From NCBI GenBank assembly GCA_021735645.1, contig JAIPGP010000027.1:1-40161 (forward strand): a stretch of 40,161 bases of DNA. Direction: 5' to 3'. Below are positions 13,510-37,625 of this stretch, piece by piece. Source of the DNA: Candidatus Cloacimonadota bacterium. Its GTDB lineage: Bacteria; Cloacimonadota; Cloacimonadia; Cloacimonadales; TCS61. The translations under genes and the position numbers were made by a program. The stretch's first letter is position 1; each line of letters starts with the position of its first letter. The notes under the pieces are model-generated. The model did not search any database, had not been told where the DNA came from, and saw only the letters and a program-made list of their open reading frames with translations.

Positions 13510-14433
13510 TTACCAGGATTTCAGCCAGGCGTCGCAGATATCATAATCTGTGAAGCCAACTGATTGATAGAATTGATGAGCAGGCTCTTCCTCAGAAACT
13601 ACTATTGCCAGAGTAGCTCCTATCTCAGCAGAGCGGCGCAATCCTTCCAGCATCAATGCTCTACCCAGGCCCTGCCTGTGAAAATCCTTATCGATTCCTA
13701 CCGGTTCAAAAAGAGCAGTTCGCAGATAATCATCAAACCAGACAGTAGCAAATCCTACAACTTTGCCCTCCGGCGATTCCATTACTACATCCAGATCTCG
13801 TCTGTATAATGGTGCGTTTTGCAAATTTTTGAACCATTCCCAGCCTTCGTATTTCTCATCAGGCTCATCGGGATGAAAAGCTGTCCAGGACGCCCAGCTC
13901 CGGGAAACAACGTCATCCCCGCTTCCCTGCGAGCGCAAAATAAAACCCTTTGGTATCTTTATCTGAGGTATATTACTTAAGACATAATATCGCTCTCTGG
14001 TATTAATATCCTGACGTTCAAAGCCCTTGCTTTGCAATATCTCATTTCGCAATTTGTCATCTCTATGCGACCAGATATAGAGAATATTTTCACCTTTATC
14101 ATTTTTCTTACTCAGATACTGCAAAGCAGTTTCGATGATCTCTGCCTCAAATTTTACGGTTTTATAATTCGGATGAATATCAATTACCGCATCCCGGCGA
14201 CCGGCAGGATGCATAACTGCCATAATTTCACCCGCATCAGATTCCCAAAACCAGATCAGATCATCAATTTCCCGCTCAAAACAGTTACGGTTAACATGCC
14301 AGCGCCAGTAATCCAGTTCTGCCGGCAGCCATGATTTCTTTCTTTTGTTACTGGATAAAAAACATTCCCGAAGAAATGTCCTGATTCTCCAGAAATCATC
14401 CTCACAACCAAATTTTTTTAATTTGTATAACAT
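13510..14433 (-). CDS. GNAT-family N-acetyltransferase
   Basis: A 307-residue cytoplasmic acetyltransferase. The C-terminal GNAT fold (~160-307) shows the strand VVGFATVWFDD, the strand TALFEPVGIDKDFHRQGLGRALM with the acetyl-CoA pyrophosphate loop R253-Q-G-L-G-R-A (Q/RxxGxG/A), and the closing AHQFYQSVGF motif. The N-terminal half (~1-155) has weaker GNAT-like features (EIMAVMHPAG, ILQSKGFERQ), so the protein may be a tandem pseudo-dimeric GNAT. The acceptor is unknown. ATG 14433 is preceded by GGAAGG. It is a single gene on the same strand as the paralogue at 14553 but separated from it by a hairpin. Confidence 0.85.
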   Translation of the reverse strand: MLYKLKKFGCEDDFWRIRTFLRECFLSSNKRKKSWLPAELDYWRWHVNRNCFEREIDDLIWFWESDAGEIMAVMHPAGRRDAVIDIHPNYKTVKFEAEIIETALQYLSKKNDKGENILYIWSHRDDKLRNEILQSKGFERQDINTRERYYVLSNIPQIKIPKGFILRSQGSGDDVVSRSWASWTAFHPDEPDEKYEGWEWFKNLQNAPLYRRDLDVVMESPEGKVVGFATVWFDDYLRTALFEPVGIDKDFHRQGLGRALMLEGLRRSAEIGATLAIVVSEEEPAHQFYQSVGFTDYDICDAWLKSW

Positions 14434-14506
14434 TTTATTCCTTCCAGTTACAATTATTATCAGTCCTTAATATACCAATGAGAACAATGGGAGGCAGTGT
14501 TAATGT

Positions 14507-14536
14507 AGATAAAGCCCCGTTTCAGAGGCTTTATCT
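14507..14536. terminator. Terminator-like hairpin after the first paralogue
   Basis: AGATAAAGCC (14507-14516) pairs with GGCTTTATCT (14527-14536) around a 10-base loop, 17 bp downstream of the stop of the minus-strand gene at 14553. The T-run on the minus side is poor, so efficiency is uncertain. Confidence 0.5.
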
Positions 14537-14552
14537 TTGTAAAATATGATGA

Positions 14553-19369: not shown

Positions 19370-20077
19370 TTAATCGGGGATAATTTTGAGACAGTGACGA
19401 AGCAGATTATCCACTATTATACCTGCACAGCCCATGATGAGGATATAGATGAGCATATTTTCATACTGGAGCAGATATCTGAAATCGAGCAGGCGAAATC
19501 CTAAGCCATTTTTCACACCCAGCATTTCCACTGCGATCACAGTCGTCCAGCCTAAACCCCAGAGGATACGGAGCAAGTTTATAAACTGAGCTTTGAGCAC
19601 TGGGATTTCCACCAACGTAAAAATCTGCCAGGCATCAGCTCCACAGATGTGAGCTTCTTCGCGATATTCCTTGAGTACACTTTCATAGTTTTCAGCAGTC
19701 ATTATCACAGCGGGAAAGAAAAGTGCAGTCAGCAAAATAGCCGCAGCAGGTGCTTCACCGAGACCAAACCAGATAATAGCAATAGGCAGCCAGGCATAAG
19801 GCGAAATGTGACGGATCAGGTTAAGAGCAGGCATAGTAATTGCTTTTAGCCAGGGGCAGGAATAAAGCAGTTTGCCGATAAAGATAGCAGTTATCCAGGC
19901 GGTTAAGGCAGTAAGCGTAACGCGGATAAATGAATAGAAGAAATCTGTGAGCATGATGCGCCAGTCTATTTCCGGCTGCAAAACATTGCGCGCTGGTATG
20001 TTCAGACTTAGTAATAATCCGAAGATCATCAGTGCCAGGAATAATAGACTAAGGAATGATCTGGTGATATACTTCAT
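19370..20077 (-). CDS. ABC transporter permease, NitT/TauT type
   Basis: A 235-residue inner-membrane permease (BPD_transp_1 family). Hydrophobic segments include SLLFLALMIFGLLLSL, ALTAWITAIFIGKLL, AAAILLTALFFPAVIM, LLRILWGLGWTTVIAVEML and MLIYILIMGCAGIIV. The EAA loop that contacts the ATPase is EEAHICGADAWQIFTLVEIP (~140-160), with the conserved G and the I-P end. It overlaps the 3' end of the substrate-binding gene by 29 bp, so translation is coupled. The usual third component, the ATPase, is absent here; the next gene downstream is paralogue 2 behind its own promoter. The substrate is unknown: this family moves nitrate, sulfonates, taurine, and thiamine precursors. Confidence 0.85.
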   Translation of the reverse strand: MKYITRSFLSLLFLALMIFGLLLSLNIPARNVLQPEIDWRIMLTDFFYSFIRVTLTALTAWITAIFIGKLLYSCPWLKAITMPALNLIRHISPYAWLPIAIIWFGLGEAPAAAILLTALFFPAVIMTAENYESVLKEYREEAHICGADAWQIFTLVEIPVLKAQFINLLRILWGLGWTTVIAVEMLGVKNGLGFRLLDFRYLLQYENMLIYILIMGCAGIIVDNLLRHCLKIIPD

Positions 20078-20951
20078 CTTTTGTTACCTTTCTTGCCAGA
20101 TAGCCTTTTGCCAGCATGATCTCTGCTGCCTGCATTTCAAAATCTTTGCCGGTATCTTCCAAACCTGTAATGTATTTTGTGTGTTGAAGCGACAGAGAGG
20201 CAGTTGATTCATTTAAGCCATAGTTTTTTTGAGCAATTTCCAGATTTTTGGTGTAGTTTCTCCGCATCATTACCACAGCTTTATCAATATCTTTAAGAAA
20301 ATTTTGCACCAGCGTTGCTTTTGATTTTAGAGCAGTCTGCGAAACAACCAGATCACAACAGGGATGACTGGGGAAAGTATTACTGTACCAGTCAATAATC
20401 TCAAACTGTGATGGCAGATTGAAAATAGAGGGTACATAATAGCTGATGGCATCCACTTCACCCGCCTGCAGAGCAGCAGCCATATCCATGGGCGTACGAA
20501 ATGGTATCATTACCGGTAAGGTCAATTTCTGCTTAATGAATACCATTTCTGGAATGATCTCAAGCGTGGAATTTTTTAATACGCCCAAACGAACGGATTG
20601 CAAATCCTCTCGAGAATTAATAGGTTTTCTGGCAATTATGCCATCACTTTCTCGTTCCAGAAATGAGATTATCTTTACTTCTTTATTTTGAGAAACATCC
20701 ATCCAGGCATACGTGAAAGGCATAATAGCCAGATCAATGCGTCCGGCAACTAAAGCTTCATTAGTTTCCCAGCCGGAATGAAAGTATTGAAAATTCCATT
20801 CGGAATGATCTCCGGGAATTTGCTGAAGAGCATACTGCACCGGCAGATGGTTCATAGAGGGCTTTATCAAGCCAATAACCAGGGTTTCTGACTTCTGGCT
20901 GGTACAACTGCCAATCAGCAGACAACAGAGCAGTATCATGACGTATTTCAT
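20049..20951 (-). CDS. ABC transporter substrate-binding lipoprotein (NMT1/TauA-like)
   Basis: A 300-residue periplasmic-binding-protein type 2 lipoprotein. I chose ATG 20951 because AGGAGG lies at 20956-20961 and the sequence after it, MKYVMILLCCLLIGSC, is a lipoprotein signal with Cys16; the longer frame upstream runs through a terminator. The order of features fits the NitT/TauT binding proteins: an opening strand TLVIGLIKP, GRIDLAIMPFTYAW, a hinge with LQSVRLGVLKNSTLEI, and ALQAGEVDAISYYVPSIF. It captures a small solute and hands it to the permease encoded immediately downstream. Its mRNA leader contains a full terminator hairpin, which suggests attenuation. The ligand cannot be told from the sequence. 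Confidence 0.85.
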   Translation of the reverse strand: MKYVMILLCCLLIGSCTSQKSETLVIGLIKPSMNHLPVQYALQQIPGDHSEWNFQYFHSGWETNEALVAGRIDLAIMPFTYAWMDVSQNKEVKIISFLERESDGIIARKPINSREDLQSVRLGVLKNSTLEIIPEMVFIKQKLTLPVMIPFRTPMDMAAALQAGEVDAISYYVPSIFNLPSQFEIIDWYSNTFPSHPCCDLVVSQTALKSKATLVQNFLKDIDKAVVMMRRNYTKNLEIAQKNYGLNESTASLSLQHTKYITGLEDTGKDFEMQAAEIMLAKGYLARKVTKDEVYHQIIP

Positions 20952-20965
20952 CTTACCTCCTAAAT

Positions 20966-21004
20966 AAAAAAAAAGCCACACTGACCATAGCAGTCAGGGT
21001 GGCT
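20966..21004 (-). terminator. Terminator hairpin inside the substrate-binding gene leader (possible attenuator)
   Basis: On the minus strand AGCCACCCTGAC pairs with GTCAGTGTGGCT (11 of 12 pairs) around a 7-base loop and is followed by nine Ts (20974 to 20966). Four bases later comes the AGGAGG of the gene at 20951. No promoter can fit between the T-run and the start codon, so transcripts that express the gene must read through this structure. TTGACA at 21064-21069 (minus) could be the -35 of the leader promoter; the -10 is unclear. Confidence 0.7.
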
Positions 21005-21122: not shown

Positions 21123-21157
21123 AAAAAAATGCCCTCTATCTTGCGATAGAGGGCATT
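21122..21157 (-). terminator. Intrinsic terminator of the TonB/PorV operon
   Basis: Perfect 13-bp stem: AATGCCCTCTATC (21128-21140) with GATAGAGGGCATT (21145-21157), loop TTGC. On the minus strand it is followed by a run of Ts (complement of the A-run 21122-21129). It starts 22 bp after the stop of the gene at 21179. Confidence 0.9.
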
Positions 21158-21178: not shown

Positions 21179-23347
21179 TTATTTCATCAGGATCATTTTC
21201 TTTGAAGTAGTATATTTTCCGAACTTTGTTTTGTAGAAATAAACACCTGAAGGAACTTCAGAGCCATTGGCATTAGTACCATTCCAGGTAACCGGATGGA
21301 TACCGGCTTCGTAAGTATCGTCAACCAGAGTTCTGATCTTCTGACCTTTAACGTTGTAGATATCAATGGTTACGTGACCAGCAGTCTGAGTTTCAAACTG
21401 GATAGTCGTAGTAGGATTGAAAGGATTAGGATAGTTCTTTATCTGTAAAGGAACAGAAACAAGTTCAGTATCATCAGCGTCATGACCACCGCCTTCACCA
21501 AAATAAATACGCATGGCAGCATATTCAAAGGTAGAGCCATTATTAAGACCATGAGTTTGGCTGTGGTTTGAGCCATAGTCATTATCGTCGAGGAAGAATA
21601 AATGCACAATACCATAACCATCGCCATCATCTTCAATTCTGTCGCCAGGATAAGCGAAGCAAGGGATCATACCTGCAAATTCTTCTACATAAGTATCACT
21701 ATTTTCATTAGCATTCATAAAGATAGGATCACTCCAGGTTGCACCCCAGTCATTAGAAACGCAAACAGCCAGTTCTGGTTTAGCTACCCAGTCTTCATAA
21801 CCTTCAAACCCTTCATTAGCAGCATTAGCATATAAACCATCCACCCATAGATAAGCCATCCAGCCATTTTCATTATTGGTAGTCAGGTAATTTTCATTAT
21901 AATGGAAAGCACTTTCGGCATCATAATGAAAAATAGGCCAGTCTTCTTCCCAATTGGGGAAACCGTTAGCTTGAACACTGTCTAAAACGTCATCTTCATT
22001 AAGGTCCCATGGTTCCATTAAAATACCATCATTAGGATAATCTCCTGATGGATATACATCAGTGATATTAAATTCGTGAGTATTCAGATCAAAAGTGAAA
22101 GTTTTGGGGTAAATCTGATAGCCGGTAACCCAATAATAACCCGGTCCATCTCCACTGTCGAATGTGACACCCATATTCCCAGCCCAAGTAACTGCGCTGT
22201 TATCGTGAGTAGGCACAATGTTGAAATGACCGGTATAAATTATTTGCTGTTCAACTGGCCATGGGTCTGTCGGGTCAGCTGTGGGGTCTTCAATATTGGT
22301 TCTGTCTGAGTATAAATACCATTCTCTACCAGTAGGAATATAGGTAAATAGAGGATTTTCTTCGGGAAAAGTGCTTACTGAGTAGTATTCCTGCCAGTTA
22401 TCACCTTCACCATAATTATCATTAATCATGCAGAAAAGCTCATCTGGTTCAGTTGAAACATCAGAATCAGCGATTTTGTATCCCATGAAAATCAATTGAT
22501 TATCAATCACGCAGAAAGATTTAAAAGGGCGGTACCAGGTAGGGTCTGCAGCATTCCAGCTATCTAAGGTTGGAATTGTATTATAACTCCATTCCAGGTT
22601 ACTTTGAGCATTAAGATCATCGGCGTTGAAATCAGCATACATGATCATAACATTTTCTGATGGATAAGTTGTAGAGCCGTCATTTTCCATATGGTTGCTG
22701 GCAACACAGTAAATTCTCTGCTTTCCGGCTTCAGGAGAAGGACCAATGGCTAACTGGGGCCAGATAAATTCGTCATCTGCAGTAGGATCAAGGCCATTTT
22801 GAGCATCAGAGTCAAGGACAGTGATCACGGGGTCTTTCCAGAGACCATGTCCCTGAATAATATGATAAAGATCATAAATTAACAAACAGTCATAGGTGCC
22901 TGTGCCATCATCAAGAGCCACGTGCCAGGTACCAAATACATCTCCAGTTTCCTGGTGAACAATAGCATCCGGATAATAACCAACGCTTCCAATACCTTGA
23001 GAAGCCTGAACAACACCCATATTATCTACGTAAGTATAACTAATTTCGCTGTTTCCAGCCGCATCTTTAACGCGATAGATCATATAAACGCCACCGCCAT
23101 TCTCTTCTGACTGCAAAGCAATCGGAGTCTGGTTGTAGCATTGGAAATAATCAGCATAGTTAGTTAACAGGTCCTGGGGTGGTACTGACCATTCCCATTC
23201 GGGAACCTCTCTGGATGCAGTTCTTTGCTGTGGAACAGCTTTCATTGAATAGTCCGGGGTGAGAAAATCTGTCTTAACCGGGAAAATCTCAGCGCATAAG
23301 CTTACTATGAAAACCATAAGTAAACTGATAAATAATACCTTCTTCAT
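21179..23347 (-). CDS. Secreted Asp-box protein with type IX sorting domain (paralogue 3, operon cargo)
   Basis: A 722-residue, more distant member of the family at 14553 and 16981. The signal peptide is MKKVLFISLLMVFIVSLCAE, and AGGAGGA precedes ATG 23347. The family start is kept (WEWSVPPQDLLTNYADYFQCY), as is the Asp-box SNDWGATW (~555). The acidic loop is altered to DLNEDDVLDS. A GEGGGHDADD linker leads to the sorting domain (NYPNPFNPTTTIQFETQTAGHVTIDIYNVKGQKIRTLVDD...SGVYFY...KMILMK). Unlike the other two it has no promoter of its own: it begins 18 bp after the PorV/PorQ-like gene and ends the TonB operon with a strong terminator. It is therefore the likely surface-exported partner of that operon. 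Catalytic residues were not recognised; a beta-propeller fold is inferred. Confidence 0.82.
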   Translation of the reverse strand: MKKVLFISLLMVFIVSLCAEIFPVKTDFLTPDYSMKAVPQQRTASREVPEWEWSVPPQDLLTNYADYFQCYNQTPIALQSEENGGGVYMIYRVKDAAGNSEISYTYVDNMGVVQASQGIGSVGYYPDAIVHQETGDVFGTWHVALDDGTGTYDCLLIYDLYHIIQGHGLWKDPVITVLDSDAQNGLDPTADDEFIWPQLAIGPSPEAGKQRIYCVASNHMENDGSTTYPSENVMIMYADFNADDLNAQSNLEWSYNTIPTLDSWNAADPTWYRPFKSFCVIDNQLIFMGYKIADSDVSTEPDELFCMINDNYGEGDNWQEYYSVSTFPEENPLFTYIPTGREWYLYSDRTNIEDPTADPTDPWPVEQQIIYTGHFNIVPTHDNSAVTWAGNMGVTFDSGDGPGYYWVTGYQIYPKTFTFDLNTHEFNITDVYPSGDYPNDGILMEPWDLNEDDVLDSVQANGFPNWEEDWPIFHYDAESAFHYNENYLTTNNENGWMAYLWVDGLYANAANEGFEGYEDWVAKPELAVCVSNDWGATWSDPIFMNANENSDTYVEEFAGMIPCFAYPGDRIEDDGDGYGIVHLFFLDDNDYGSNHSQTHGLNNGSTFEYAAMRIYFGEGGGHDADDTELVSVPLQIKNYPNPFNPTTTIQFETQTAGHVTIDIYNVKGQKIRTLVDDTYEAGIHPVTWNGTNANGSEVPSGVYFYKTKFGKYTTSKKMILMK

Positions 23348-23365
23348 TTGTCCTCCTAAGATAAA

Positions 23366-24397
23366 TTAATATAACAACTTTATAGTAAAACGCTGTGGCG
23401 TCAACATAAACGACTCAGTAAGATCTCCATAATCAGAATATGAATAATCTAACATAACAATAAAAGAACTGGTGGGAATGATAAATCCCAGACCAGCGCT
23501 AAAACCGGCAGCATCATATTCAAACTGGTAACCGCTTCGCAGGCATAATTTACCAATTTTGTATTCAGCTCCCAGGTTATATGTTTCCTGACGGTCAACA
23601 TAGCTATCTAATTGCAGAGAAGCTATCAAATAGGAGCTATCATCATCAGAACGATATAAGTCACCTGCTAATCCAAGTGAGAAATTCATGGGAAGTTTAA
23701 AAGGCATTTCTTCTCTATCTTCATCTATCAAGCCATCGCCGTCATTATCAAGCAGATCAAAAACATCTTCATCGTAAAGCCCATCACCATCTTCATCGAT
23801 GTTAAACTCCATATCAGGGCCAAAATTTCTCATTGCCATACCAATAGTGATATTATTCCAGCCAGCGTTATAGAGAGTTCCTAAATCAACCGAAAGACCA
23901 TTTGCCGGGTATTCATCGAGTTCTTCGCGGATAAATTTACCAGTAATACCAAAAGAGAATTTATCGGTAAACTGATAGGAATAGGTAAGTCCAGCCGCCA
24001 GATCATAGCAATTGAACATCTCTCCAGTAGGCACCCAACTTTCTTCAGTGATCACTTCCATTTCCGGCATGTGCAGATAAGACATGCTAAAAGCCAGAAC
24101 ACCGAAATCAAAGTAGTGAGAAACGGCAAAATATTCATGCTGGATTTCAGCCAACCATTCGGTATGAGAATAGAAAACCTGGTTTTGAGTATTTAGCGAA
24201 AGACCAGCAGGATTCCAGTAAACAGAAGAAATGTCATCCGTGACAGCCGTATATGCTTCACCCATACCAATAGCTCTGGCATCAATTCCCAGCTTAAGAA
24301 ATTGAACACCTGCTGTTCCTACTTTGGGGAAAATTTCCGCCGAAAGCAACAGGGGCAGCAGAATAACTAATGCGATAATACAAATATATTTTTTCAT
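23366..24397 (-). CDS. PorV/PorQ-family outer-membrane protein with calcium-loop insertion
   Basis: A 343-residue outer-membrane beta-barrel of the PorV/PorQ (FadL-like) family; PorV itself shuttles type IX substrates to the attachment complex. The signal peptide is MKKYICIIALVILLPLLLSAE. The family opening is clear: VGTAGVQFLKLGIDARAIGMGEAYTAVTDDISSVYWNPAGLS (~26-68). Alternating amphipathic strands follow, ending in FTIKLLY with a terminal aromatic. An insertion at ~199-230 carries two loops, DEDGDGLYDED (201-211) and DNDGDGLIDED (217-227), of a calcium-binding type not expected in plain PorV. GGGGGTG precedes ATG 24397. It sits 10 bp after the 1027-residue protein gene and 18 bp before a sorting-domain cargo, which fits a role in exporting or holding these proteins. 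Confidence 0.85.
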   Translation of the reverse strand: MKKYICIIALVILLPLLLSAEIFPKVGTAGVQFLKLGIDARAIGMGEAYTAVTDDISSVYWNPAGLSLNTQNQVFYSHTEWLAEIQHEYFAVSHYFDFGVLAFSMSYLHMPEMEVITEESWVPTGEMFNCYDLAAGLTYSYQFTDKFSFGITGKFIREELDEYPANGLSVDLGTLYNAGWNNITIGMAMRNFGPDMEFNIDEDGDGLYDEDVFDLLDNDGDGLIDEDREEMPFKLPMNFSLGLAGDLYRSDDDSSYLIASLQLDSYVDRQETYNLGAEYKIGKLCLRSGYQFEYDAAGFSAGLGFIIPTSSFIVMLDYSYSDYGDLTESFMLTPQRFTIKLLY

Positions 24398-24407
24398 AAT
24401 TCACCCC

Positions 24408-27400
24408 CTACTTTATTACAACAAACTTTCCGACTTTCTTATCACCGGAATCTTTGTCTATGACTGTGAACAGATAAATACCAGGGGCTATGATCTGATT
24501 GTGTTTTGATAGCAGGTCCCAGGCATGAATTCCTCCGGCAGCTTGAGCTTCGAAGGCTGCTTTGGAAACAGAAATGATGTCTTCGTAGTATTCATCACCG
24601 TTATGTTCGATTTGATCAACCAGGTCTCCCGCCATAGTCCAGATTTTAATCGTACATTTCTCGGGGAGATTTACGAACCATAAACGGCGGCTTTTGTCTC
24701 CTTTATTATCAGTATCACGCTTCCCATCAAATTTGCTGAAACCAATATAGGGGTTTGGAACTACATAGATATTGTCCATTTTGCTGTTGCCAGCAGGTCC
24801 GGGGAAGAATATCTTCATGTTTGCATCTGCATCACGAGCTGATTCCAGGACGGGAATATCCAAAGATGGCATTCCTCTGTCCCAGGCTGAAACTGCTACA
24901 TAGTATTCAATACCCTTGGGCGGGTGATTGATAGTTTGTTCATAGTATCTGCGAGCCAGTCTATCTTTACGTAATTTCAAGAGTTTATCTTCATCACCAA
25001 TATTACTTTGACCAAGATGTTCTGGCAAAGGTATCAGTCTATCATCATATAGTTCCAGATATACTTCATCGCTCACATCCGGATGCTTAAACAGCAGAGC
25101 TTCGTCATTTAAGCTCAAACCCGCAGACATACTAATAGCGGTTTCCATATCCATCTCATAATCATATAACGGTTTGCCATAAACAAGGATATTTGGATTT
25201 TCAAGATCCTCAGTTGTATATTTAACCAACTGATATAAATCATTAAAATGGTAATAATTCAGGTCTTCTTCTGTAACTCGGTGTGCATCAGGCAATCCTT
25301 TATCAATTCCCAATTCTCCTCCGAAATCAAGATATTGCGCTGATCCCCAGTTGACGATGTAATCGGCATAATCCTGTTCGGACTCCAGTTTATCCCAGCG
25401 ACCCTTCTGCATCCAGAACTCCTGGGAACCACTACCAGTGCGACCCCACAGAGAGTACCCCTGGAAATCATGACGCAACCTGTAGGCTGTCCAGGGATTT
25501 AAGTAGGCATTCGGATTTCTGTTAGCTTCAGTACTTGTATAAGCTTGAGTATCTTCATCCCAGACATAAGGAGCAAATTCATGCGGGCAGTTTGCCTGTA
25601 GTACCGGGTCATCATTCCAGACGTGCATGTGACTGTCAAGAGTAGATAATGAGTCTGTTTCCTGCCAGCCTAACTGCTGAATTTTCACAGTTTTTGTATC
25701 AACATTATCAATTTCTGATCTATTATCCCAATAAACAGTGATCTGGTTACCGGAGTCGGAGAGTTCGCCAAACATCATGGGTATTTCAGGTGGTTCTGGT
25801 GGAACATAATGTATAAATGTATCAGGCTGAGTAACAGTAATCAAATTCTGAGCATCTCCATATGTATCCTTGGCATGAATAGATGTCTGCATTAGATCAA
25901 GTCTGGAGTCGCCTGGGAATACAGCTACCACAATCTTCATAGTCTTGCCAGGTGCCAGGTTCCAGCGCTTATAATAATTTCCATAATCATCAGTTTCATT
26001 ATATTCGGGAGTATCTGGCAGAGCACCATAGAAACCAAACAAATAACGCGTGTCTAATCCACCGGAATCTTCCTGAGCATCAGGAAAATCACGTAATGAA
26101 ATGTAGGTGTCATCATTAGGTTTGGGATTTCTATTGGTCATCAACCAGTATTTTTCGTTGGCGGTAGTGGTGGGATCCAGGTTATAAGGATCAGAATCAT
26201 CGGGGCCATCACCTACATCCCAAGTCCAGCAAGCAAATTCCAGAATGTCTGGATCAGGAGTACATACTCTAGAGCCTATCAATCCTGTTGTCAAGCCATT
26301 ATCGCCATCAAAATCTTTTGTGTAGGCAAATTCATAGCCGGCACCAGCCACATAAGAGCTGTAATCATCAGAGTGCACATTATCCCAGGCTTGAGGGCCT
26401 ACATCAGAATCCATGTAAATACCCATGGCACAATCATATAATGTATCACTATAGGTATTTGTAAAATTCATATTTGTAATATCAAATTCCACATAAACCA
26501 GGTTTTTAATATGTTCATAACTCCACTGGTAACTAAGCTGTCTAACTCTTACTTTGAGAGGATAATGATCAGAAGAGCCTTTGCTATCGCCCCAGTCACG
26601 TTCAGTAGGTGTGCCAAAAGGACTATAGTCATAGTAATAGGCAATGAAATCCTGTTCAGAGACAGGATAGCCATCTTCATCCAGTAAAGCATCTCCATCA
26701 TCATCATGTGGTTGAGTGAAACAATAAACTCCATCACTCGGGTCTTGAGAGAGATCAACAAAACCTAAGGGAAACCAGATTTCATCATTTTCTATAACAG
26801 GACCGAACTCATTAGTATTTAGATCATGCAGATACTGGCTGCCGTATCCAGAAAACGCTGTTGGCAATTCATTTTCCATTCTAAAGGGGAAAGCAAATCC
26901 TACCGGGTCTTCATCAATACTGCCATCACCATCATCATCTTCACCTCGCCGCTGCTGCCTGATTGATGTGGTAGCCACAATATCTTCACTATTATAATCA
27001 TTATACATCTGCCCTAAAGGAGAAGTTTCCAGCGGGTTGTAAGCCGGCAGAAACTCTTTCAAGTCAAGATCACCGTCAAAACCTGTAGTTACTAATGTAT
27101 CGACTACCAGTTTCAGGTCTTCTGTCCATCCTTCTCCAAATTCGGGGATTACATCGTTTTCATCCTCCGGGTCAGGTGCCCAGAAAAGCCTTTGCCCAAG
27201 GTTGTTCCTTCTGATCTTCTTTGCACCAAACCATAATGCTCCACGATAGAGGTAATCTATTCCACTGCCGCCGGGGTACTCAAGTGAGGGCCACTCCGGG
27301 GTAATATCTCCACCAGAACCAAAAAAACCATAGTTACTGATGCGTAACCAGATATTTCCAACATTGTGGTAGCGGATAAGATCAAGCTTCTTTCCAGAAG

Positions 27401-27491
27401 CAGGTTCTACCTGGGCTTTGGCAAATAATATACCAAAGGCTGAAAGCAATATGAGGCTTATAATAAATATCCTGGTTCTCAGTAATTTCAT
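24408..27491 (-). CDS. Large exported surface protein with PNPY-type C-terminal domain
   Basis: A 1027-residue protein with signal peptide MKLLRTRIFIISLILLSAFG...A (to ~26) and no family I can name. Two calcium-style loops, DDDGDGSIDED (185-195) and DDDGDALLDED (263-273), lie in the N-terminal third. The middle holds an FN3-like segment (MFGELSDSGNQITVYWDNRSEIDNVD, ~598-625). The C-terminus is a variant of the FCB export domain: VVPNPYIGF..., LPEKCTIKIWTMAGDLVDQIEH, WDLLSKHNQIIAPGIYLFTV and GKFVVIK, with PNPY in place of YPNPFNP. Proteins with this tail often accompany PorV and TonB receptors in the FCB group (from memory). It begins 20 bp after tonB; AATGGAGG lies before ATG 27491. A structural or binding role on the outer surface is inferred. 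Confidence 0.75.
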   Translation of the reverse strand: MKLLRTRIFIISLILLSAFGILFAKAQVEPASGKKLDLIRYHNVGNIWLRISNYGFFGSGGDITPEWPSLEYPGGSGIDYLYRGALWFGAKKIRRNNLGQRLFWAPDPEDENDVIPEFGEGWTEDLKLVVDTLVTTGFDGDLDLKEFLPAYNPLETSPLGQMYNDYNSEDIVATTSIRQQRRGEDDDGDGSIDEDPVGFAFPFRMENELPTAFSGYGSQYLHDLNTNEFGPVIENDEIWFPLGFVDLSQDPSDGVYCFTQPHDDDGDALLDEDGYPVSEQDFIAYYYDYSPFGTPTERDWGDSKGSSDHYPLKVRVRQLSYQWSYEHIKNLVYVEFDITNMNFTNTYSDTLYDCAMGIYMDSDVGPQAWDNVHSDDYSSYVAGAGYEFAYTKDFDGDNGLTTGLIGSRVCTPDPDILEFACWTWDVGDGPDDSDPYNLDPTTTANEKYWLMTNRNPKPNDDTYISLRDFPDAQEDSGGLDTRYLFGFYGALPDTPEYNETDDYGNYYKRWNLAPGKTMKIVVAVFPGDSRLDLMQTSIHAKDTYGDAQNLITVTQPDTFIHYVPPEPPEIPMMFGELSDSGNQITVYWDNRSEIDNVDTKTVKIQQLGWQETDSLSTLDSHMHVWNDDPVLQANCPHEFAPYVWDEDTQAYTSTEANRNPNAYLNPWTAYRLRHDFQGYSLWGRTGSGSQEFWMQKGRWDKLESEQDYADYIVNWGSAQYLDFGGELGIDKGLPDAHRVTEEDLNYYHFNDLYQLVKYTTEDLENPNILVYGKPLYDYEMDMETAISMSAGLSLNDEALLFKHPDVSDEVYLELYDDRLIPLPEHLGQSNIGDEDKLLKLRKDRLARRYYEQTINHPPKGIEYYVAVSAWDRGMPSLDIPVLESARDADANMKIFFPGPAGNSKMDNIYVVPNPYIGFSKFDGKRDTDNKGDKSRRLWFVNLPEKCTIKIWTMAGDLVDQIEHNGDEYYEDIISVSKAAFEAQAAGGIHAWDLLSKHNQIIAPGIYLFTVIDKDSGDKKVGKFVVIK

Positions 27492-27511
27492 ATATCTATT
27501 CCTCCATTGTC

Positions 27512-28162
27512 TTAATTTTCTAAATAGAAGTTCACGGGAAAAGTTACCCAGACGGCAATAGGTTTTCCACTTGTTTTTGCTGGCTCAAATTCCAGTTGAC
27601 GGGCATATTCAATCGCTGCTTCATCTAATCCTCCCGGTCCAGGCAGGACAGATTTTTTCACCTCAATTGCCCCGATCTTACCGCTTTTAAGGACTTCCAG
27701 CTCTAATACCACAGTTCCCTGGATATTTGCTTCTTTGGCAAACGAGGGGTATCTTAAGGGTGCTTCGTTCAGCTTTTTGGGGGGTTCATCGTAATAGATG
27801 AAATCCTTAGTAGTAGTACCCCAACCCTCTGGCTTAGCAATTTCTTCATAGGGATCCAGAGTTGTTTTATCAATCGTATCCAGAACCATCAATTCATCAT
27901 CATCATCATCATCATCAGATAATTGATCATCTATCACGATTTGAATGGGGGGCACGATATGTGTATCGGGAGGTTTGATCTTATCTTTGATCTCCGGTGG
28001 TATCTCTATTGCTTCGGTAGTTTTCACTTCTGCTTTATAAGCTTTGATTTCTACATTAGGAGAAACCAGAAAGGCAAATAAGATTAATAGTATTGCTAAA
28101 CTGAAAGCTTTGTCATAATAGCTGTTCGCTACATCTTTCCAATCCTGATATTTTCTATCCAT
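27512..28162 (-). CDS. tonB: TonB energy transducer
   Basis: A 216-residue TonB. One N-terminal membrane helix (AFSLAILLILFAFLVSP, ~19-36) is followed by a periplasmic linker with IPPEIKDKIKPPDT and an Asp run (seven D at ~84-90). The TonB C-terminal domain is at ~130-216: LRYPSFAKEANIQGTVVLELEVLKSGKIGAIEV...LDEAAIEYARQLEFEPAK...VWVTFPVNFYLEN. It carries proton-motive energy from ExbB/ExbD to the TonB box of an outer-membrane receptor, most simply the one encoded at 29844. It lies 3 bp after the second exbD. Confidence 0.92.
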   Translation of the reverse strand: MDRKYQDWKDVANSYYDKAFSLAILLILFAFLVSPNVEIKAYKAEVKTTEAIEIPPEIKDKIKPPDTHIVPPIQIVIDDQLSDDDDDDDELMVLDTIDKTTLDPYEEIAKPEGWGTTTKDFIYYDEPPKKLNEAPLRYPSFAKEANIQGTVVLELEVLKSGKIGAIEVKKSVLPGPGGLDEAAIEYARQLEFEPAKTSGKPIAVWVTFPVNFYLEN

Positions 28163-28165
28163 ATC

Positions 28166-28573
28166 TTACCTCTTCAGTTTAGCTTCAAATTGAACCCTCA
28201 GAGCATTCGCTTCCTTGAGTTGATTTAATACATCAGACATGATGCCATAGTTGGTATCTTTATCTGTCCGGAAACAGGTTATTGTATTGATGTCTTCTGC
28301 CAGCTTCTGCTGCATAACTACGCTTACCTGAGGAATTTCCACAGCATAATCATCTATGGTGATGGTTCCAGCACGGTTTACGTAGATAGTAGTAGCATGC
28401 TTGCGAGGAATTTTTTCTATTTCTTTTGCTTTGGGCAGGATCACATCTAAACCTTTTTCTTTTACAAATACCGTACTGACCATAAAGAACAACAGCAAGA
28501 GAAATGATATATCTCCCATTGAGGTGGTAGGTATCTGTGTCTCTGGTTTTGCACCGCGTTTTACTTTTGCCAT
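28166..28573 (-). CDS. exbD: ExbD/TolR-family protein (second copy)
   Basis: 135 residues: basic cytoplasmic N-terminus, one helix with the proton-path Asp (D21 in SMGDISFLLLLFFMVSTVF), then a periplasmic domain (VILPKAKEIEKIPRKHATTIYVNRAGTITIDDYAV...). It resembles the preceding exbD only partly, so this is an old duplication. Two ExbD-type proteins in one TonB cluster are common in Bacteroidota and relatives, where they are thought to form a mixed pair in the ExbB pore. It is 9 bp after exbD-1 and 3 bp before tonB. Confidence 0.92.
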   Translation of the reverse strand: MAKVKRGAKPETQIPTTSMGDISFLLLLFFMVSTVFVKEKGLDVILPKAKEIEKIPRKHATTIYVNRAGTITIDDYAVEIPQVSVVMQQKLAEDINTITCFRTDKDTNYGIMSDVLNQLKEANALRVQFEAKLKR

Positions 28574-28582
28574 AACACCATC

Positions 28583-28990
28583 CTAATTAGTTGATAACGA
28601 GATTTTTTCTGCTCCCGCTGCCTGTAAAAGATCAAGTACCCTTACCATATATTCATAATTACTTTTTCTATCAGTCTTGAGTGAAACAACCATATCCGGA
28701 TTACCCTTGACCTTATTACGGATCAGTTTTTCCAGGTCTTCCAGAGCTACTTCTTCCTCATTAACTGCCACTAATCCTTCTTTATTGATCCAGACTTTAG
28801 TTAGATTCTCATCTTTGATCCTGGCTTTCTGCTGTCCCGGTTCACTTGCCGGCGGTAGCACCAGACCTAAACCTTTCTTGATATCAAATGTTGTGGTTGA
28901 TAAGAAGAAAACCAGAAGCAGGAATGATATATCGGACGTAGAGGTTGTCGGAATACCACCCAGATTCTTTCTTTTCCTGCCTAATTTCAT
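28583..28990 (-). CDS. exbD: ExbD/TolR-family protein (first copy)
   Basis: 135 residues with one N-terminal membrane helix; the conserved Asp is D20 in STSDISFLLLVFFLSTTTF. The periplasmic domain contains KVWINKEGLVAVNEEEV and VVSLKTDRKSNYEYMVRVLDLLQ. It is part of the proton-driven motor with ExbB, encoded 15 bp upstream. The sequence differs clearly from the second exbD. Confidence 0.92.
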   Translation of the reverse strand: MKLGRKRKNLGGIPTTSTSDISFLLLVFFLSTTTFDIKKGLGLVLPPASEPGQQKARIKDENLTKVWINKEGLVAVNEEEVALEDLEKLIRNKVKGNPDMVVSLKTDRKSNYEYMVRVLDLLQAAGAEKISLSTN

Positions 28991-29005
28991 CTTTTTACCC
29001 CCCAG

Positions 29006-29812
29006 TTAATTCTCAATCAGGGTTTCCACAACCTTCTCTGAACCTCGCTGCATATCAAGAACCAAACCATCTACATTACCAAGCAGCAGATTGTTAAAGA
29101 ACTGAACCGGAATAGCTACTGCCAATCCAGCAGCGGAGGTGATCAAAGCCACATTAATACCGCTTGCTACAATAGTAGGATCCACTTCTCCAGCTTTGGC
29201 TATTGCATCAAATGCCTGGATCATTCCCACCAGAGTTCCAAAGAAACCAAGCATCGGAGCCAGGTTAATAACAGTGGACATTGGCACAAAGCCCTTTTCC
29301 AGGAATGCCATTTCAATGGTTCCAGCACTTTCCATTGCCTTTTCCACAGCATCCACACCCTGATCTGCTTTTAATAATCCAGCATGAATAATGGCTGCTA
29401 CCGGACCTTTGGTCTTGGCACAAATCGCGGCTGCATCCTGATATCTCTTTTCTTTCAGCAAGGGAATTATCTTATCAAATAAGGCATTTATATTTATCCT
29501 GGCATAGGATAAAGCAATGATCTTGTATATTATCACGGCAATTCCCCATATCATTAGAACCAGGATCGGCCACATGGCAAAACCACCGTCCAGAAATAAA
29601 TCTACAAACCCGCTTCCTACCAGACTACGGGCAAATGCTTCAACACCACCCACCTGAGGTGATTCATCGAACATAATCTCCTCGTCAGCTGTTGTTGTCA
29701 TCTCTGTTAACCCTTCAGTATTCGCCTCTGCCTCCTGGGCAAAAAGACTTACTCCGAAAAGCAATGTGATGATTGTCATTATCATGAAGAGATTCAAAAA
29801 CCTTTTCTTCAT
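29006..29812 (-). CDS. exbB: ExbB/TolQ/MotA-family proton channel
   Basis: A 268-residue ExbB with an N-terminal extension. Residues 1-25 read as a cleavable signal peptide (MKKRFLNLFMIMTIITLLFG...FAQ), followed by an acidic stretch (TTADEEIMFDESP). The ExbB core has a first helix (GGFAMWPILVLMIWGIAVIIYKIIAL, ~75-100), a cytoplasmic loop (KEKRYQDAAAICAKTKGPVAAI), and the paired helices PMLGFFGTLVGMIQAF and ITSAAGLAVAIPVQFFNNLL. It begins 31 bp after the receptor gene. Such signal-peptide-bearing ExbB forms are known in FCB bacteria. The gene set and spacing show it powers the TonB of this operon. Confidence 0.93.
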   Translation of the reverse strand: MKKRFLNLFMIMTIITLLFGVSLFAQEAEANTEGLTEMTTTADEEIMFDESPQVGGVEAFARSLVGSGFVDLFLDGGFAMWPILVLMIWGIAVIIYKIIALSYARININALFDKIIPLLKEKRYQDAAAICAKTKGPVAAIIHAGLLKADQGVDAVEKAMESAGTIEMAFLEKGFVPMSTVINLAPMLGFFGTLVGMIQAFDAIAKAGEVDPTIVASGINVALITSAAGLAVAIPVQFFNNLLLGNVDGLVLDMQRGSEKVVETLIEN

Positions 29813-29843
29813 TATATCCTCCTAAATATTTTTTCTTCTTAAT

Positions 29844-32819
29844 TTACCAGTTAAAGGTGAACCCAAAATTATAGGTTCTGCCTTCACTTTCGCGGGACGG
29901 GTCATTAATTCCCATCTGATGGATAAGATAGGTTTCTTCAGACACATACTCGCCATCATCATCTATATAGCCATCACCATCCGGGTTTGGTTCATATAAT
30001 CCATCATCATAAGCCTTACCAGTACGTGGATACACCGCATAATAATTAGTCTTATCAAATAAATTACTGATCGTGAAATATACCTTGAATGATGACTTCT
30101 CACCAAAAGAGAAGCGCTTGTAAATCGTTAAATTTGCATTAGAAGTATAGGGCATGTTCGAGCTGTTGATATCATCTGAAGTATCATCTTCATTCACGCC
30201 TGTATAGGGAGTTCCAGAAGCCACGCTGTATAGAAAGTTCATAGAGAAATCGTCAAAAGGCACTTTCCAGTCAACAAATGGCAGATAATATTCCTCATCG
30301 TTCTGAATTCTGAAACCAAGATTAAGATTGAAATTATGTCGTGTATCCCAGTCTAAAGGAAATTCCCGCAGATTGGTTGTTTCATCCTGTACTATAGTAT
30401 CCGAATTATTTCCATTTGCCCAGGATAAAGAATATGAGGCGGAACCTGAAATGAAGTTTGATAACGGTTTGGATAAATTAAGGTCAATACCTCGAGCCGA
30501 GCCATAATCTTCCGAGTAATATTCATACCAGTAAACAGTTTCATCTCCAGCTTTTTCTACTTTACGAGTACTAACATAATTATAAATATTTTTATAATAT
30601 GCCGTTAAATCCATGATTAAACCTTCCATAAGCTGCTGCTGCAATCCCACTTCATAAGTCACTGTTATCTGAGGTTCGAGTGATGGATTTCCCACTACTA
30701 CATTATTTGTGCTTGTATAAGCATCAGTGGAATCCACTGTTGTGAATATATACTGCATCTGGGGCAACTGATTCTGGTAGTTATAGGCAAAATGCAGAAC
30801 TGAAAGCTCGGAAATCGGATGAGATACTCCCAAACGGGGAGATACCATCATCTGGAACTTTTCATCATTATTAAAGTCTCTGGCACGATAACTTCCATCT
30901 TCGTTCAAGATGTCATAACTTTCACCGAGATACCAGAAATCAAGACGAACTCCGGCATTTACGATCATTCCTTCCCATTCCATCCGGTCTTGCAGATAAT
31001 ATCCTACCTGCCAGGGGTCTGCCCGGTATCCATCTGTACTTCCTGAAGCAGCCACGATGGCATCAAAATTGTCCTGCTGTGAATAAAAGTCTGTATCTTC
31101 TGATAATTCCAGATCATACTCGCCATCACCATTAGTATCCAGGCTGTCTCCTGCGTCATAATGCTCTATAGGATCGCAGCTTGCCAGAAACTCATCATAA
31201 CGGTAAGGGTCTATCACCCAGGGATTATATAGCTGATCTTTTTCTATATGATGCTTGATCAATTCAACGCCAGTCTTGAAACCATGAATTGTATTCACCT
31301 GATATTCAAAATCTGTTCTTAAACTCATCTGCTCACTGGAATCATCCTGATAAGTTCCATATATTGCCCCGGGGGTAACAAAAGAACCTATGCCATATTC
31401 ATTACCATCAGAGAAATATTGCCATTTATTTATGCCGTCGGCTATGCCGATTACACCATTACTATTCGAATCCAGAAAATGTATCCCGCTGGTATTACGT
31501 CCATCAGAATCCATGTAATAAATATCCCATTCAGAGCTGTCCATCATAGTATAATAGTCATCTCTTTCAATTTCTTTTGGCTGCAAAGTATAGCTTTTCT
31601 GGTAATATGAACCTTTCACTTTTAAATTCATCTGAGAATTAAATAAATGGTCATAAGTGACAATATACTGATTCTGCAACTGTTTATATTTGAGATAATA
31701 TTCTGGAGCATAACGCCAGGCATGACTGTAAGGCTTGCTGTTACTGGTATCTCCACGCATGGCAAAGGTCAGGTTCTGACGCGGATTGAATTGATATTTC
31801 ATCTTCATATTAGCATTGTAATAATTATAATTACGCTCATTCAAATCAAAAATCCAGAATTCATCGCGGTCTGTATAGGCTTCGTTTGCAGTCCATTCTC
31901 CACTGATTTTAGGTATCTCTGCATTAGCATCACTATTATAATAATCACGATACCTGCCATCAGTCCATTTGGCTGCTGCATTAACGAAAAAGGTGAAATC
32001 ATTCTTCAAATCCGGAACTAATCCCCCTAAAACAGGTCCGCCAATTGCCAGCTTTATCCCGTCTTCATTAGAGGTATCATCTTTATTTGAGAATATGTGG
32101 TCTGTATTGAATTCTAACTTTCCACTGTAATCTTCACCACCACTCTTCGTTACGATGTTTACTATTCCGGATTGAGCATTACCATATTCTGCTGTGAATC
32201 CACCTGTCATCACACTCATATCGGCAATAGCATCTTGATCGATCGTTAAAGCAGAACCACCATCTACCGGGTCAGAGACGCTCATACCATCAACAGTATA
32301 AACTACCTCATTTGCTCTACCACCGCGAACGTGAAGGTCTCCGCCACTACTCACAGCACCGGCCTGAATAGCGACGATATCTTCAATACTTTCAGCAGCT
32401 ATCTCTTCGATTGTGTCTGAAGTAACTGTGTTTGTTGAACCAGACCTGACTTTCTTGACACCCTGATTCTTGGCTTCAATAACCGTTACACCCTCCAGGG
32501 CTAAAGCATCTTTACTCAATGTGAAATTCAAGGTCGTTGTCTCATCAGTTCCAATCTGAATACCCTGAACTATCTGAGTTCCATAACCCATGGAAAGGCA
32601 TTTTACATTATAGGTGCCGGGAGGTATGTTTATGATTATATATTGACCATTATCCATTGCTCCTGTGCCTATCTGCGTCCCTTCCAGAATAATATTCGCT
32701 GGTACTGCCTCTCCTTGTTCGTTTCGTACTTTACCTGCTAATTGTCCTGTCGTTCCCGCATTTAACACCAGACCGATGAAAACGGCGAATATAAATATAA
32801 ACAATATCTTCTTCTTCAT
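29844..32819 (-). CDS. TonB-dependent outer-membrane receptor with CarboxypepD-like N-domain
   Basis: 991 residues from ATG 32819 (the frame could start one codon earlier at a TTG; AAGGGGGA precedes). After the signal peptide (MKKKILFIFIFAVFIGLVLNA) comes a carboxypeptidase-regulatory-like domain (GQLAGKVRNEQGEAVPANIIL...PPGTYNVKCLSMGY, ~26-110). The plug domain follows (DTIEEIAAESIEDIVAIQAGAV...LHVRGGRANEVVYTVDGMSVSDP...AEYGNAQSGIVNIVTKSGG, ~135-230), then the beta-barrel ending GRTYNFGFTFNW with the terminal aromatic needed by the BAM machinery. Loops DTNGDGEYDLE and PDGDGYIDDDGE may bind calcium. It lacks obvious SusD or siderophore partners, so the ligand is unknown. It is the first gene of the exbB-exbD-exbD-tonB-surface protein-PorV-cargo operon and probably spans the outer membrane as its receptor. 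Confidence 0.9.
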   Translation of the reverse strand: MKKKILFIFIFAVFIGLVLNAGTTGQLAGKVRNEQGEAVPANIILEGTQIGTGAMDNGQYIIINIPPGTYNVKCLSMGYGTQIVQGIQIGTDETTTLNFTLSKDALALEGVTVIEAKNQGVKKVRSGSTNTVTSDTIEEIAAESIEDIVAIQAGAVSSGGDLHVRGGRANEVVYTVDGMSVSDPVDGGSALTIDQDAIADMSVMTGGFTAEYGNAQSGIVNIVTKSGGEDYSGKLEFNTDHIFSNKDDTSNEDGIKLAIGGPVLGGLVPDLKNDFTFFVNAAAKWTDGRYRDYYNSDANAEIPKISGEWTANEAYTDRDEFWIFDLNERNYNYYNANMKMKYQFNPRQNLTFAMRGDTSNSKPYSHAWRYAPEYYLKYKQLQNQYIVTYDHLFNSQMNLKVKGSYYQKSYTLQPKEIERDDYYTMMDSSEWDIYYMDSDGRNTSGIHFLDSNSNGVIGIADGINKWQYFSDGNEYGIGSFVTPGAIYGTYQDDSSEQMSLRTDFEYQVNTIHGFKTGVELIKHHIEKDQLYNPWVIDPYRYDEFLASCDPIEHYDAGDSLDTNGDGEYDLELSEDTDFYSQQDNFDAIVAASGSTDGYRADPWQVGYYLQDRMEWEGMIVNAGVRLDFWYLGESYDILNEDGSYRARDFNNDEKFQMMVSPRLGVSHPISELSVLHFAYNYQNQLPQMQYIFTTVDSTDAYTSTNNVVVGNPSLEPQITVTYEVGLQQQLMEGLIMDLTAYYKNIYNYVSTRKVEKAGDETVYWYEYYSEDYGSARGIDLNLSKPLSNFISGSASYSLSWANGNNSDTIVQDETTNLREFPLDWDTRHNFNLNLGFRIQNDEEYYLPFVDWKVPFDDFSMNFLYSVASGTPYTGVNEDDTSDDINSSNMPYTSNANLTIYKRFSFGEKSSFKVYFTISNLFDKTNYYAVYPRTGKAYDDGLYEPNPDGDGYIDDDGEYVSEETYLIHQMGINDPSRESEGRTYNFGFTFNW

Positions 32820-32925: not shown

Positions 32926-33135
32926 TTATTCTTTTCCGCGCTCTTGACTTACAGTTTCCGCTGCATTATGCCAATAATCTCCAAATCTTTTACCATCCGG
33001 ACTGATTATAAAACGAATTAATAATATTAGAAGTATAAAAATCGCCAGCTTGAGTAATAAACCGCCCCAGGTAGATGAACGGCGATTGCGACGTTCCGTT
33101 TTTCTGCGCTCTATTTCTTCTCGAAATACTTTCAT
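32926..33135 (-). CDS. Small single-span membrane protein
   Basis: 69 residues with a strongly basic N-terminus (REEIERRKTERRNRRSS, residues 5-21), one helix (LLLKLAIFILLILLIRFII, ~26-44) and a short polar tail. The positive-inside rule predicts an N-in, C-out inner-membrane protein. Its ATG shares one base with the aminotransferase stop (ATGA overlap), so it is translationally coupled and the fourth gene of the glyS-pta-aminotransferase operon. I recognise no family. The coupling and the membrane helix make it a real gene despite its size. Confidence 0.7.
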   Translation of the reverse strand: MKVFREEIERRKTERRNRRSSTWGGLLLKLAIFILLILLIRFIISPDGKRFGDYWHNAAETVSQERGKE

Positions 33136-34340
33136 CAGGACTTTTTCAACAGTGACTGCAGACCCTGGTCAAACCACTCGATACCTTTACGAATATTATC
33201 AAGACTATTAGCATAAGAGAATCTCACAAAGCCTTCTGCCCGAAAAGCACTGCCCGCTACTAATGCCAGATGATAATTAGTCAATAAATACTGACATAAC
33301 TCTTCACTGCTGGTGATACCCCGCTGGTTGTTTTCCAGATACCAGCTTACATCCGGCATTATGTAAAACGCCCCTTGAGGTTTCACACAGTTCACATGAG
33401 CAATCCCGTTTAATCCGCTGCACATAAAATCTCGCCGCCGCGAAAACTCCTGCCGCATCTTCTCTACACTGCCGTCATCTTCGTCCAATGCTGTCACACA
33501 AGCTCTCTGAGTTATTGAATTCACACAGGAAGTTGTATGGCTTTGTATTTCGCTTGCTTTTTTCACTATTGCTTCTGGTCCTGCCATATAGCCCAGCCGC
33601 CAGCCCGTCATGGCGTAAGCCTTGGATACTCCGTTCACTACTACTGTATTGTCCTGAAGTTCCCGAGATAATGACGCTATAGATATATGCTGATTCCCAT
33701 CATAGATCAGCTTCTCATATATCTCATCTGATAAGATTATCATGTCATTTTCCAGGCATACCTCACCTATCGACTGCAGTTCCTCTCTGCTATATACCAT
33801 TCCTGTCGGGTTGTTTGGGCTGTTCAAGATCAATACTTTCGGATTGCTCAGCGTTTTCACTTTTGCTGAAAGCTGTGCCGCTGTGATCTTAAAATTATTA
33901 GACATCGTGGCTTCCAGCAGTTCAGGATGGGCATCGCATAACCACACCTGACTTTCATAGCTTACCCAGCTTGGAGTGGGGATCACCACCTCATCGCGAG
34001 GATCGCATACCGTCATTAGTACATTGATCAAAGATGCCTTTGCTCCAGGACTCACCAGGATATTTTCTGCTTCATAGTTCAAACCATTATCCCGCTGAAA
34101 TTTACGGATTATTGCCTGCTTCAATTCTGGAATTCCAGCACTCGGGGTATAGCGAGTATAATTGTTGTCTATTGCCTGTTTAGCTGATTGCTTGATATAT
34201 TCCGGCGTGTTAAAATCTGGTTCACCTACACCAAAATTGATCACTTCAATTCCCTCTTTCATCATCTTCTTTGCCAAAGCAGATACCTTTAAGGTCGGCG
34301 ATGGTTGCATACACCTCGCTCTATGGGACAATCTTTTCAT
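33135..34340 (-). CDS. Class I PLP aminotransferase (aspartate aminotransferase type Ib)
   Basis: A 401-residue cytoplasmic enzyme that moves amino groups between an amino acid and 2-oxoglutarate, most likely aspartate. The signature VNGVSKAYAMTGWRLGY holds the PLP lysine K240; other family residues are NSPNNPTG (173-180), D205 in SDEIYEKL and the substrate-carboxylate Arg region FRAEGFVRFSYA. The start VSALAKKMMKEGIEVINFGVGEPDF and the total length are usual for subgroup Ib (AspC/AspB of Thermus and Bacillus); related enzymes act on aromatic substrates or prephenate. Its start overlaps the end of pta by 20 bp and its stop overlaps the small membrane protein by one base, so all are in one operon. 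Confidence 0.92.
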   Translation of the reverse strand: MKRLSHRARCMQPSPTLKVSALAKKMMKEGIEVINFGVGEPDFNTPEYIKQSAKQAIDNNYTRYTPSAGIPELKQAIIRKFQRDNGLNYEAENILVSPGAKASLINVLMTVCDPRDEVVIPTPSWVSYESQVWLCDAHPELLEATMSNNFKITAAQLSAKVKTLSNPKVLILNSPNNPTGMVYSREELQSIGEVCLENDMIILSDEIYEKLIYDGNQHISIASLSRELQDNTVVVNGVSKAYAMTGWRLGYMAGPEAIVKKASEIQSHTTSCVNSITQRACVTALDEDDGSVEKMRQEFSRRRDFMCSGLNGIAHVNCVKPQGAFYIMPDVSWYLENNQRGITSSEELCQYLLTNYHLALVAGSAFRAEGFVRFSYANSLDNIRKGIEWFDQGLQSLLKKS

Positions 34341-37477: not shown

Positions 37478-37625
37478 ACTGCCTTCTATCACGTATTTTT
37501 TATGAAAAATCAAAACTTTATATCTCTCAGATATTGTCCATTAATTCTTTGTCTGATTACAGAATTGTCTCTACAAGGCATTAATAAAATCAGCTTTCTC
37601 TCATTATCCCACTTATGCAAATTCA

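Follow-up and report, generated by a model that had tools for sequence, protein, structure and literature searches.

An operon conserved across Candidatus Cloacimonadota joins a TonB-dependent receptor and its motor genes to a PorV-family barrel and putative surface proteins

The window analysed here, a 40,161-nucleotide stretch corresponding to contig C6 of a Candidatus Cloacimonadota genome (G000), carries 8 adjacent open reading frames on the minus strand, running from position 32819 to 21179. In order, they encode a TonB-dependent receptor (TBDT), ExbB, 2 copies of ExbD, TonB, a protein of 1,027 residues (P1027), an outer-membrane barrel of the PorV/PorQ family and a cargo protein of the type IX secretion system (T9SS) with a type A sorting domain (Table 1). 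The genes are separated, from 5' to 3', by gaps of 31, 15, 9, 3, 20, 10, and 18 bp. The TBDT gene starts with the ATG at 32819, preceded by a GGGGGA-type ribosome site, and no pair of sigma-70 promoter hexamers with correct spacing was found directly 5' of it. At the opposite end, the intrinsic terminator is the top-scoring site in the scan of the region. Thus, the open reading frames, the family profiles and the terminator scan bear out the first-pass annotation, which had described 8 same-strand genes with gaps of 3–31 bp closed by one strong terminator. The neighbours on the 5' side are genes for an aminotransferase (33135–34340) and glyS (35390–37513). Downstream of the operon, 2 paralogues of its cargo (706 aa, 56% identical; 14553–16673 and 16981–19101) stand behind an SsuA/TauC-like ABC transporter (19370–20981).

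Table 1. Operon features in the window and, in the last row, members of a lipoprotein family encoded at loci outside the phylum (positions within the named loci).
Feature	Position	Strand	Characteristics
TonB-dependent receptor (TBDT), 991 aa	29844..32819	-	CarboxypepD_reg 27-102, TonB-box-like GVTVIEA, Plug 126-218; Oar/SusC-type architecture
ExbB/TolQ/MotA-family proton channel, 268 aa, N-terminal extension	29006..29812	-	PF01618, 96.4 bits
ExbD, first copy, 135 aa	28583..28990	-	PF02472, 87.1 bits
ExbD, second copy, 135 aa	28166..28573	-	PF02472, 74 bits
TonB, 216 aa	27512..28162	-	PF03544, 60.8 bits
P1027, 1027 aa, probably exported surface protein	24408..27491	-	DDDGDGxxDED calcium-type loops; sorting-like C-terminal domain ~902-1027; phylum-wide family
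PorV/PorQ-family barrel of the outer membrane, 343 aa; paralogue rather than PorV equivalog	23366..24397	-	NF033709, 208.7 bits
T9SS cargo, 722 aa	21179..23347	-	Asp-box/sialidase-like beta-propeller (fold-class hint) and type A sorting domain 639-719; TIGR04183, PF18962
Intrinsic terminator, 3' end of operon	21128..21157	-	13-bp stem, 6 GC pairs, T-run
Lipoprotein family members outside the phylum	L157 12147-13793; L158 11965-13689; L164 12454-14610		

Pfam and NCBIfam gave family calls for the TBDT, ExbB, both ExbD copies, TonB, the PorV/PorQ barrel and, in the last protein, the type A sorting domain, with PF01618, PF02472 (twice), PF03544, and PF07715 each scoring above cut-off in the operon proteins. 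In the TBDT, CarboxypepD_reg and Plug both exceed their Pfam cut-offs and the profile of the protein matches TBDTs of known structure; the PF00593 barrel was not matched in the window TBDT at E values up to 5 and is matched by relatives from outside the phylum at 87–103 bits. No operon protein matched the SusD family in Pfam. The PorV-like protein passes the PorV/PorQ family model NF033709 (cut-off 90) and matches Flavobacterium johnsoniae PorV among solved structures (6h3i_F, E = 7e-11), but fails the equivalog models for PorV (NF033710, 81.3 versus 250) and PorQ (106 versus 220). Its gene was rejected as that of the PorV of the T9SS, since it fails the equivalog model and a closer PorV (160 bits) is encoded on contig C80 of the same genome. 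At this C80 site (L128, 3321–7593), the best canonical PorV candidate lies beside a T9SS-dependent M6-like inactivated metalloprotease. The sorting domain of the operon cargo scores above cut-off with both TIGR04183 (39.4 versus 23) and PF18962 (39.9 versus 27). The structure model of the cargo (pLDDT 69.5) contains propeller folds that match sialidases and polysaccharide lyases at low TM, and we take the predicted beta-propeller as a hint at the fold class only.

P1027 as a single sequence matched no Pfam family, a profile of 24 members gave no credible Pfam match, and comparison with the PDB returned no credible relative and one chance match. Approximately 200 columns are invariant among the 24 sequences. 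The C-terminus (residues 902–1027) matches the PorZ model (E = 3.5e-7), and its alignment with the sorting domain of the cargo by hhalign has an E value of 0.0017 and a probability of 15.5; TIGR04183 has no match in P1027, the sorting-like domain of which passes no curated model. Structure prediction from 8 sequences reached a mean pLDDT of 32.4, and no fold was read from the model.

The operon is a core, vertically inherited feature of the Cloacimonadota, with a gene order conserved far beyond chance. P1027 was found in 114 of the 125 genomes of the phylum, including 67 of the 71 good ones, mostly with 53–85% identity; every relative of the window in the named collection belongs to Candidatus Cloacimonadota, one as a "Tenebribacter" record. 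The genes for TBDT, ExbB, ExbD, ExbD, and TonB lie directly upstream of P1027 in 55 of 69 loci (68 loci and the window; L046 and L106 are one genome place, so the locus counts are slightly redundant). In all but 3 of these 55 loci, PorV follows P1027, the 3 being contig ends, and a cargo gene stands after PorV in 41. Among the 69 loci, nearly all that depart from the full order either lie at a contig end or hold an additional copy of P1027, and one locus (L092) has an extra TonB gene. The cargo is fast-evolving, often duplicated and the least conserved member of the operon; it is missing 3' of PorV in a few lineages despite available sequence (L066, L073, L079, and L092), so the core consists of 7 genes. 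The possibility that the gene order arose by chance in one genome was rejected because the order is kept across the phylum. The first-pass annotation had proposed that the motor and receptor form one unit with the carrier-like barrel and the cargo, and had named lack of conservation in relatives as one refutation of this idea; the neighbourhood survey clearly found the opposite, and the unit is supported by the phylum-wide order.

Extra copies of P1027 outside the operon occur at loci L040, L047, L049, L052, L097, L100, and L102. Second full-length copies without adjoining TBDT or Ton genes are present in the genome of the window (G000:C32:5839–8922, L047), in G083 (contig C32, L040) and at L100 and L102, with L040 carrying a P1027-PorV-cargo half-module on its own. 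At L097 (8124–8759; G000:C76:46138–46758), a P1027 gene fragment of 211 aa, 62% identical to residues 165–371, is probably a decaying copy.

Outside the Cloacimonadota, the P1027 profile matched 67 genomes, partly via the C-terminal domain alone, with relatives that are smaller and divergent. We examined 20 of these loci, chosen because most matched beyond the C-terminal domain. Most of them contain a cluster of TBDT, P1027-like, and PorV genes, which are adjacent or nearly so in 10 (L156, L157, L158, L160, L162, L164, L165, L169, L170, and L173) and separated by intervening genes in 4 (L166, L167, L168, and L172). Exb-TonB genes are found in 3. L170 has the window order with a single ExbD (TBDT-ExbB-ExbD-TonB-P1027-PorV), L161 shows the order of L170 as far as the contig end, and L156 is rearranged, with ExbB-ExbD-ExbD-TonB after PorV and one further gene. 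The trio thus recurs outside the phylum, mostly without Ton genes, and is the wider unit, which the motor cassette joins in some lineages. The first-pass annotation had also held that TonB systems usually accompany nutrient-uptake genes and PorV accompanies secretion genes. The presence of a PorV-family carrier and P1027 with a TBDT does stand out, the more so as the trio also occurs outside the phylum; a TBDT beside exbB, 2 exbD genes, and tonB was, however, already known from Myxococcus Oar (PMC6434023).

Pairwise correlations of protein distances were computed over 43 complete operons. The TBDT, P1027, and PorV diverge jointly (TBDT-P1027, 0.92; TBDT-PorV, 0.93; P1027-PorV, 0.88), as does the cargo with P1027 (0.93), whereas ExbB, both ExbD copies, and TonB form a second block, with correlations of 0.79–0.92 internally and 0.54–0.81 against the trio. 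After control for Exb distances, the trio retains 0.79–0.87 internally and TonB falls to approximately 0 against it. Judged from these sequence distances, the blocks fit a putative complex in the outer membrane that unites TBDT, P1027, and PorV and that the motor would serve, with protein length and a single replaced Exb cassette as possible confounders.

The T9SS of Bacteroidota depends on the GldLM proton motor. In the Cloacimonadota, the SprA translocon protein (TIGR04189) is present in all 71 good genomes, scoring 449 bits over its frame on contig C9 of the genome of the window (cut-off 200). PorU (NF033707) is above cut-off in 72 of the 125 genomes, and the candidate of the window genome, on contig C48, has a long match at 384 bits, under the cut-off of 420. 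GldM, the one Gld component searched for, was found in 0 of the 125 genomes; the same 387-genome search recovered it in 2 unrelated genomes, the positive controls G186 and G327, at E < 1e-107. In one family (f13; L136, L137, L138, and L139), sprA lies approximately 7–8.5 kb upstream of the operon, with glyS, the aminotransferase gene, and a few more genes in between; glyS and the aminotransferase gene are also upstream in the window. The genome of the window has 3 TonB genes, 4 MotA/ExbB genes, and 8 plug domains, and proteins of the MotA/ExbB family number 1–7 per genome where any were found. In 3 genomes that are 96–98% complete (G114, G115, and G121), the operon ExbB is the only ExbB/MotA-family protein found, and each of them encodes 2–3 TBDTs. 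A separate row at L124 (G000:C58:12000–23790) comprises genes for a giant cadherin/Ig-repeat surface protein, a PorV-like barrel with TPR repeats and a FliG-C-like protein, the N-terminus of which is signal-like, as well as for MotA and MotB, possibly a non-flagellar motor in this phylum with SprA and no GldM found.

Surface assembly and capture, the 2 roles that the first-pass annotation suggested for a dedicated system, are still the proper alternatives. A TBDT with a Ton system usually serves import, and we tentatively prefer a Ton-energised surface complex of the outer membrane for SusCD-like capture and import, the surface half of which would be delivered by the T9SS. P1027 and the propeller cargo would cross the outer membrane via the SprA translocon; the PorV-family barrel of the operon, as the cognate carrier, would take P1027 from the translocon and keep it anchored. 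P1027 would then be the extracellular partner of the TBDT, located on it or next to it, where the lipoprotein SusD is found in SusCD pairs. The propeller cargos may bind or trim the substrate, and the dedicated ExbB-ExbD-ExbD-TonB motor would pull on the plug of the TBDT and thereby bring in the captured ligand. This reading is supported by the conserved order, the trio outside the phylum, the joint divergence, the presence of SprA and PorU, the predicted sialidase/lyase-like propeller of the cargo, and the substrate specificity of carriers, some of which anchor their substrates (PMC10994853). Against it stand the lack of a ligand, enzyme set or regulator pointing to a nutrient, and the invariance of P1027, which is unusual for a ligand-specific lid. 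Moreover, no SusD is encoded, the P1027 sorting-like domain fails the curated models, and the distance blocks could reflect the confounders named above. Unlike in SusCD, P1027 also multiplies without an adjoining TBDT, either alone (G000:C32, L100, and L102) or with PorV and cargo (L040).

The multiplication of P1027 and cargo copies, but not of receptor and motor, also favours the main rival, Ton-powered export, in which ExbB-ExbD-ExbD-TonB and the TBDT would take over the energising role that GldLM plays in Bacteroidota, either by pulling PorV-P1027 or PorV-cargo complexes off SprA or by aiding the surface assembly of P1027. We regard this as possible though somewhat unlikely, a weight that it owes to the missing GldM, despite the presence of SprA and PorU, and to the 3 genomes in which the operon ExbB is the sole member of its family found. 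The proximity of the operon to sprA in family f13 points in the same direction. In F. johnsoniae, the energy-requiring step of the T9SS is the extraction of the carrier-substrate complex (PMC10994853). Furthermore, Oar with its associated exbB, exbD, exbD, and tonB genes is required for PopC secretion in Myxococcus (PMC6434023). In the light of this published work, both capture and export are reasonable. However, a divergent motor could escape a search confined to GldM among the Gld components, the single-motor genomes have 2–3 TBDTs for that motor to serve, many genomes carry other motors, including a MotAB set, and the TBDT-P1027-PorV clusters outside the phylum are mostly without Ton genes. 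The CarboxypepD extension was rejected as proof of export, being part of the second commonest TBDT architecture (28%) and dominant in Bacteroidetes. The broader proposal, that the Ton motor and TBDT power the T9SS in Cloacimonadota and perhaps in other GldLM-less lineages, with TonB pulling carrier-cargo complexes off SprA, appears doubtful and rather unlikely. The capture reading is preferred over export because nearly all Ton systems import and because the trio persists without adjoining Ton genes.

Two further explanations were weighed. The operon might encode a general TonB system that works for every TBDT in the cell and is merely co-transcribed with abundant surface proteins and the carrier of these, sharing no complex with them; we consider this improbable. 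In its favour, several TBDTs but few TonB/ExbB systems are present in most genomes, and the Ton block diverges apart from the trio. Against it, many families outside the phylum keep the trio together, whether or not Ton genes are present, which is not expected from mere co-expression. Alternatively, P1027 could be an S-layer-like structural coat, delivered by PorV, with the nearby TBDT passing nutrients through it. Such a role would suit the high conservation of P1027, its extra paralogues and its calcium-type DDDGDG loops; we consider it very improbable, as P1027 shows no repeat structure and has smaller, divergent relatives outside the phylum.

Cargos of the T9SS near TBDTs are familiar from polysaccharide loci, and exbB-exbD-exbD-tonB operons with the same two-ExbD motor cassette occur in Bacteroidota, where no link of theirs to a PorV-family carrier and cargo is known. 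As in the SusCD and other TBDT surface-partner complexes of Bacteroidota, a SusC-like TBDT is here encoded next to a protein that is probably on the surface and that shares its divergence; by contrast, this partner is not a lipoprotein, has a sorting-like C-terminus and a PorV-family barrel of its own, the motor is in the operon, and SusD is lacking. The carrier-substrate pairs of PorV/PorQ in F. johnsoniae and Porphyromonas gingivalis likewise have a barrel of the PorV family adjacent to a protein with a type A sorting domain, and SprA and PorU elsewhere in the genome, but the operon barrel is not a PorV equivalog, is linked with a Ton system, and occurs where no GldM was found. Oar-type features, namely the CarboxypepD extension, the plug and the clustered exbB, exbD, exbD, and tonB, are all present in the operon. 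Oar of Myxococcus xanthus is likewise a TBDT with CarboxypepD_reg and Plug, clustered with exbB1, exbD1, exbD2, and tonB1 and associated with an exported protein (PMC6434023), export being putative for the operon; it differs from the window TBDT, which gave no PF00593 barrel match, and its cluster is described there without PorV, P1027, and T9SS cargo, all 3 of which the operon has.

Every part of the operon except P1027 comes from a known family, and their combination, its depth in the phylum and the recurrence of the trio are without description in the open-access literature, where we found no account of TBDT-PorV operons or of TonB systems in Cloacimonadota (subscription papers were outside the scope). 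Since no GldM was found in a phylum that has SprA and PorU as well as carriers of the PorV family and proteins with sorting domains, the question arises of what energises export; the operon offers a candidate motor that is widespread and is encoded together with a carrier and the likely substrates of that carrier. The capture model, if true, would add TBDT partners of a new kind, brought to the surface by the T9SS and not as lipoproteins, and a family of approximately 1,000-residue proteins without a curated model. Under either reading, the TBDT-P1027-PorV trio is a testable unit across uncultured lineages. In several of the clusters outside the phylum, PorV is followed by a gene of a homologous lipoprotein family (550–720 aa, weak DUF4159 match; Table 1), and at L160 a lipoprotein-like multihaem cytochrome related to MtrC/MtrF (13801–15384) is encoded just upstream of the trio.
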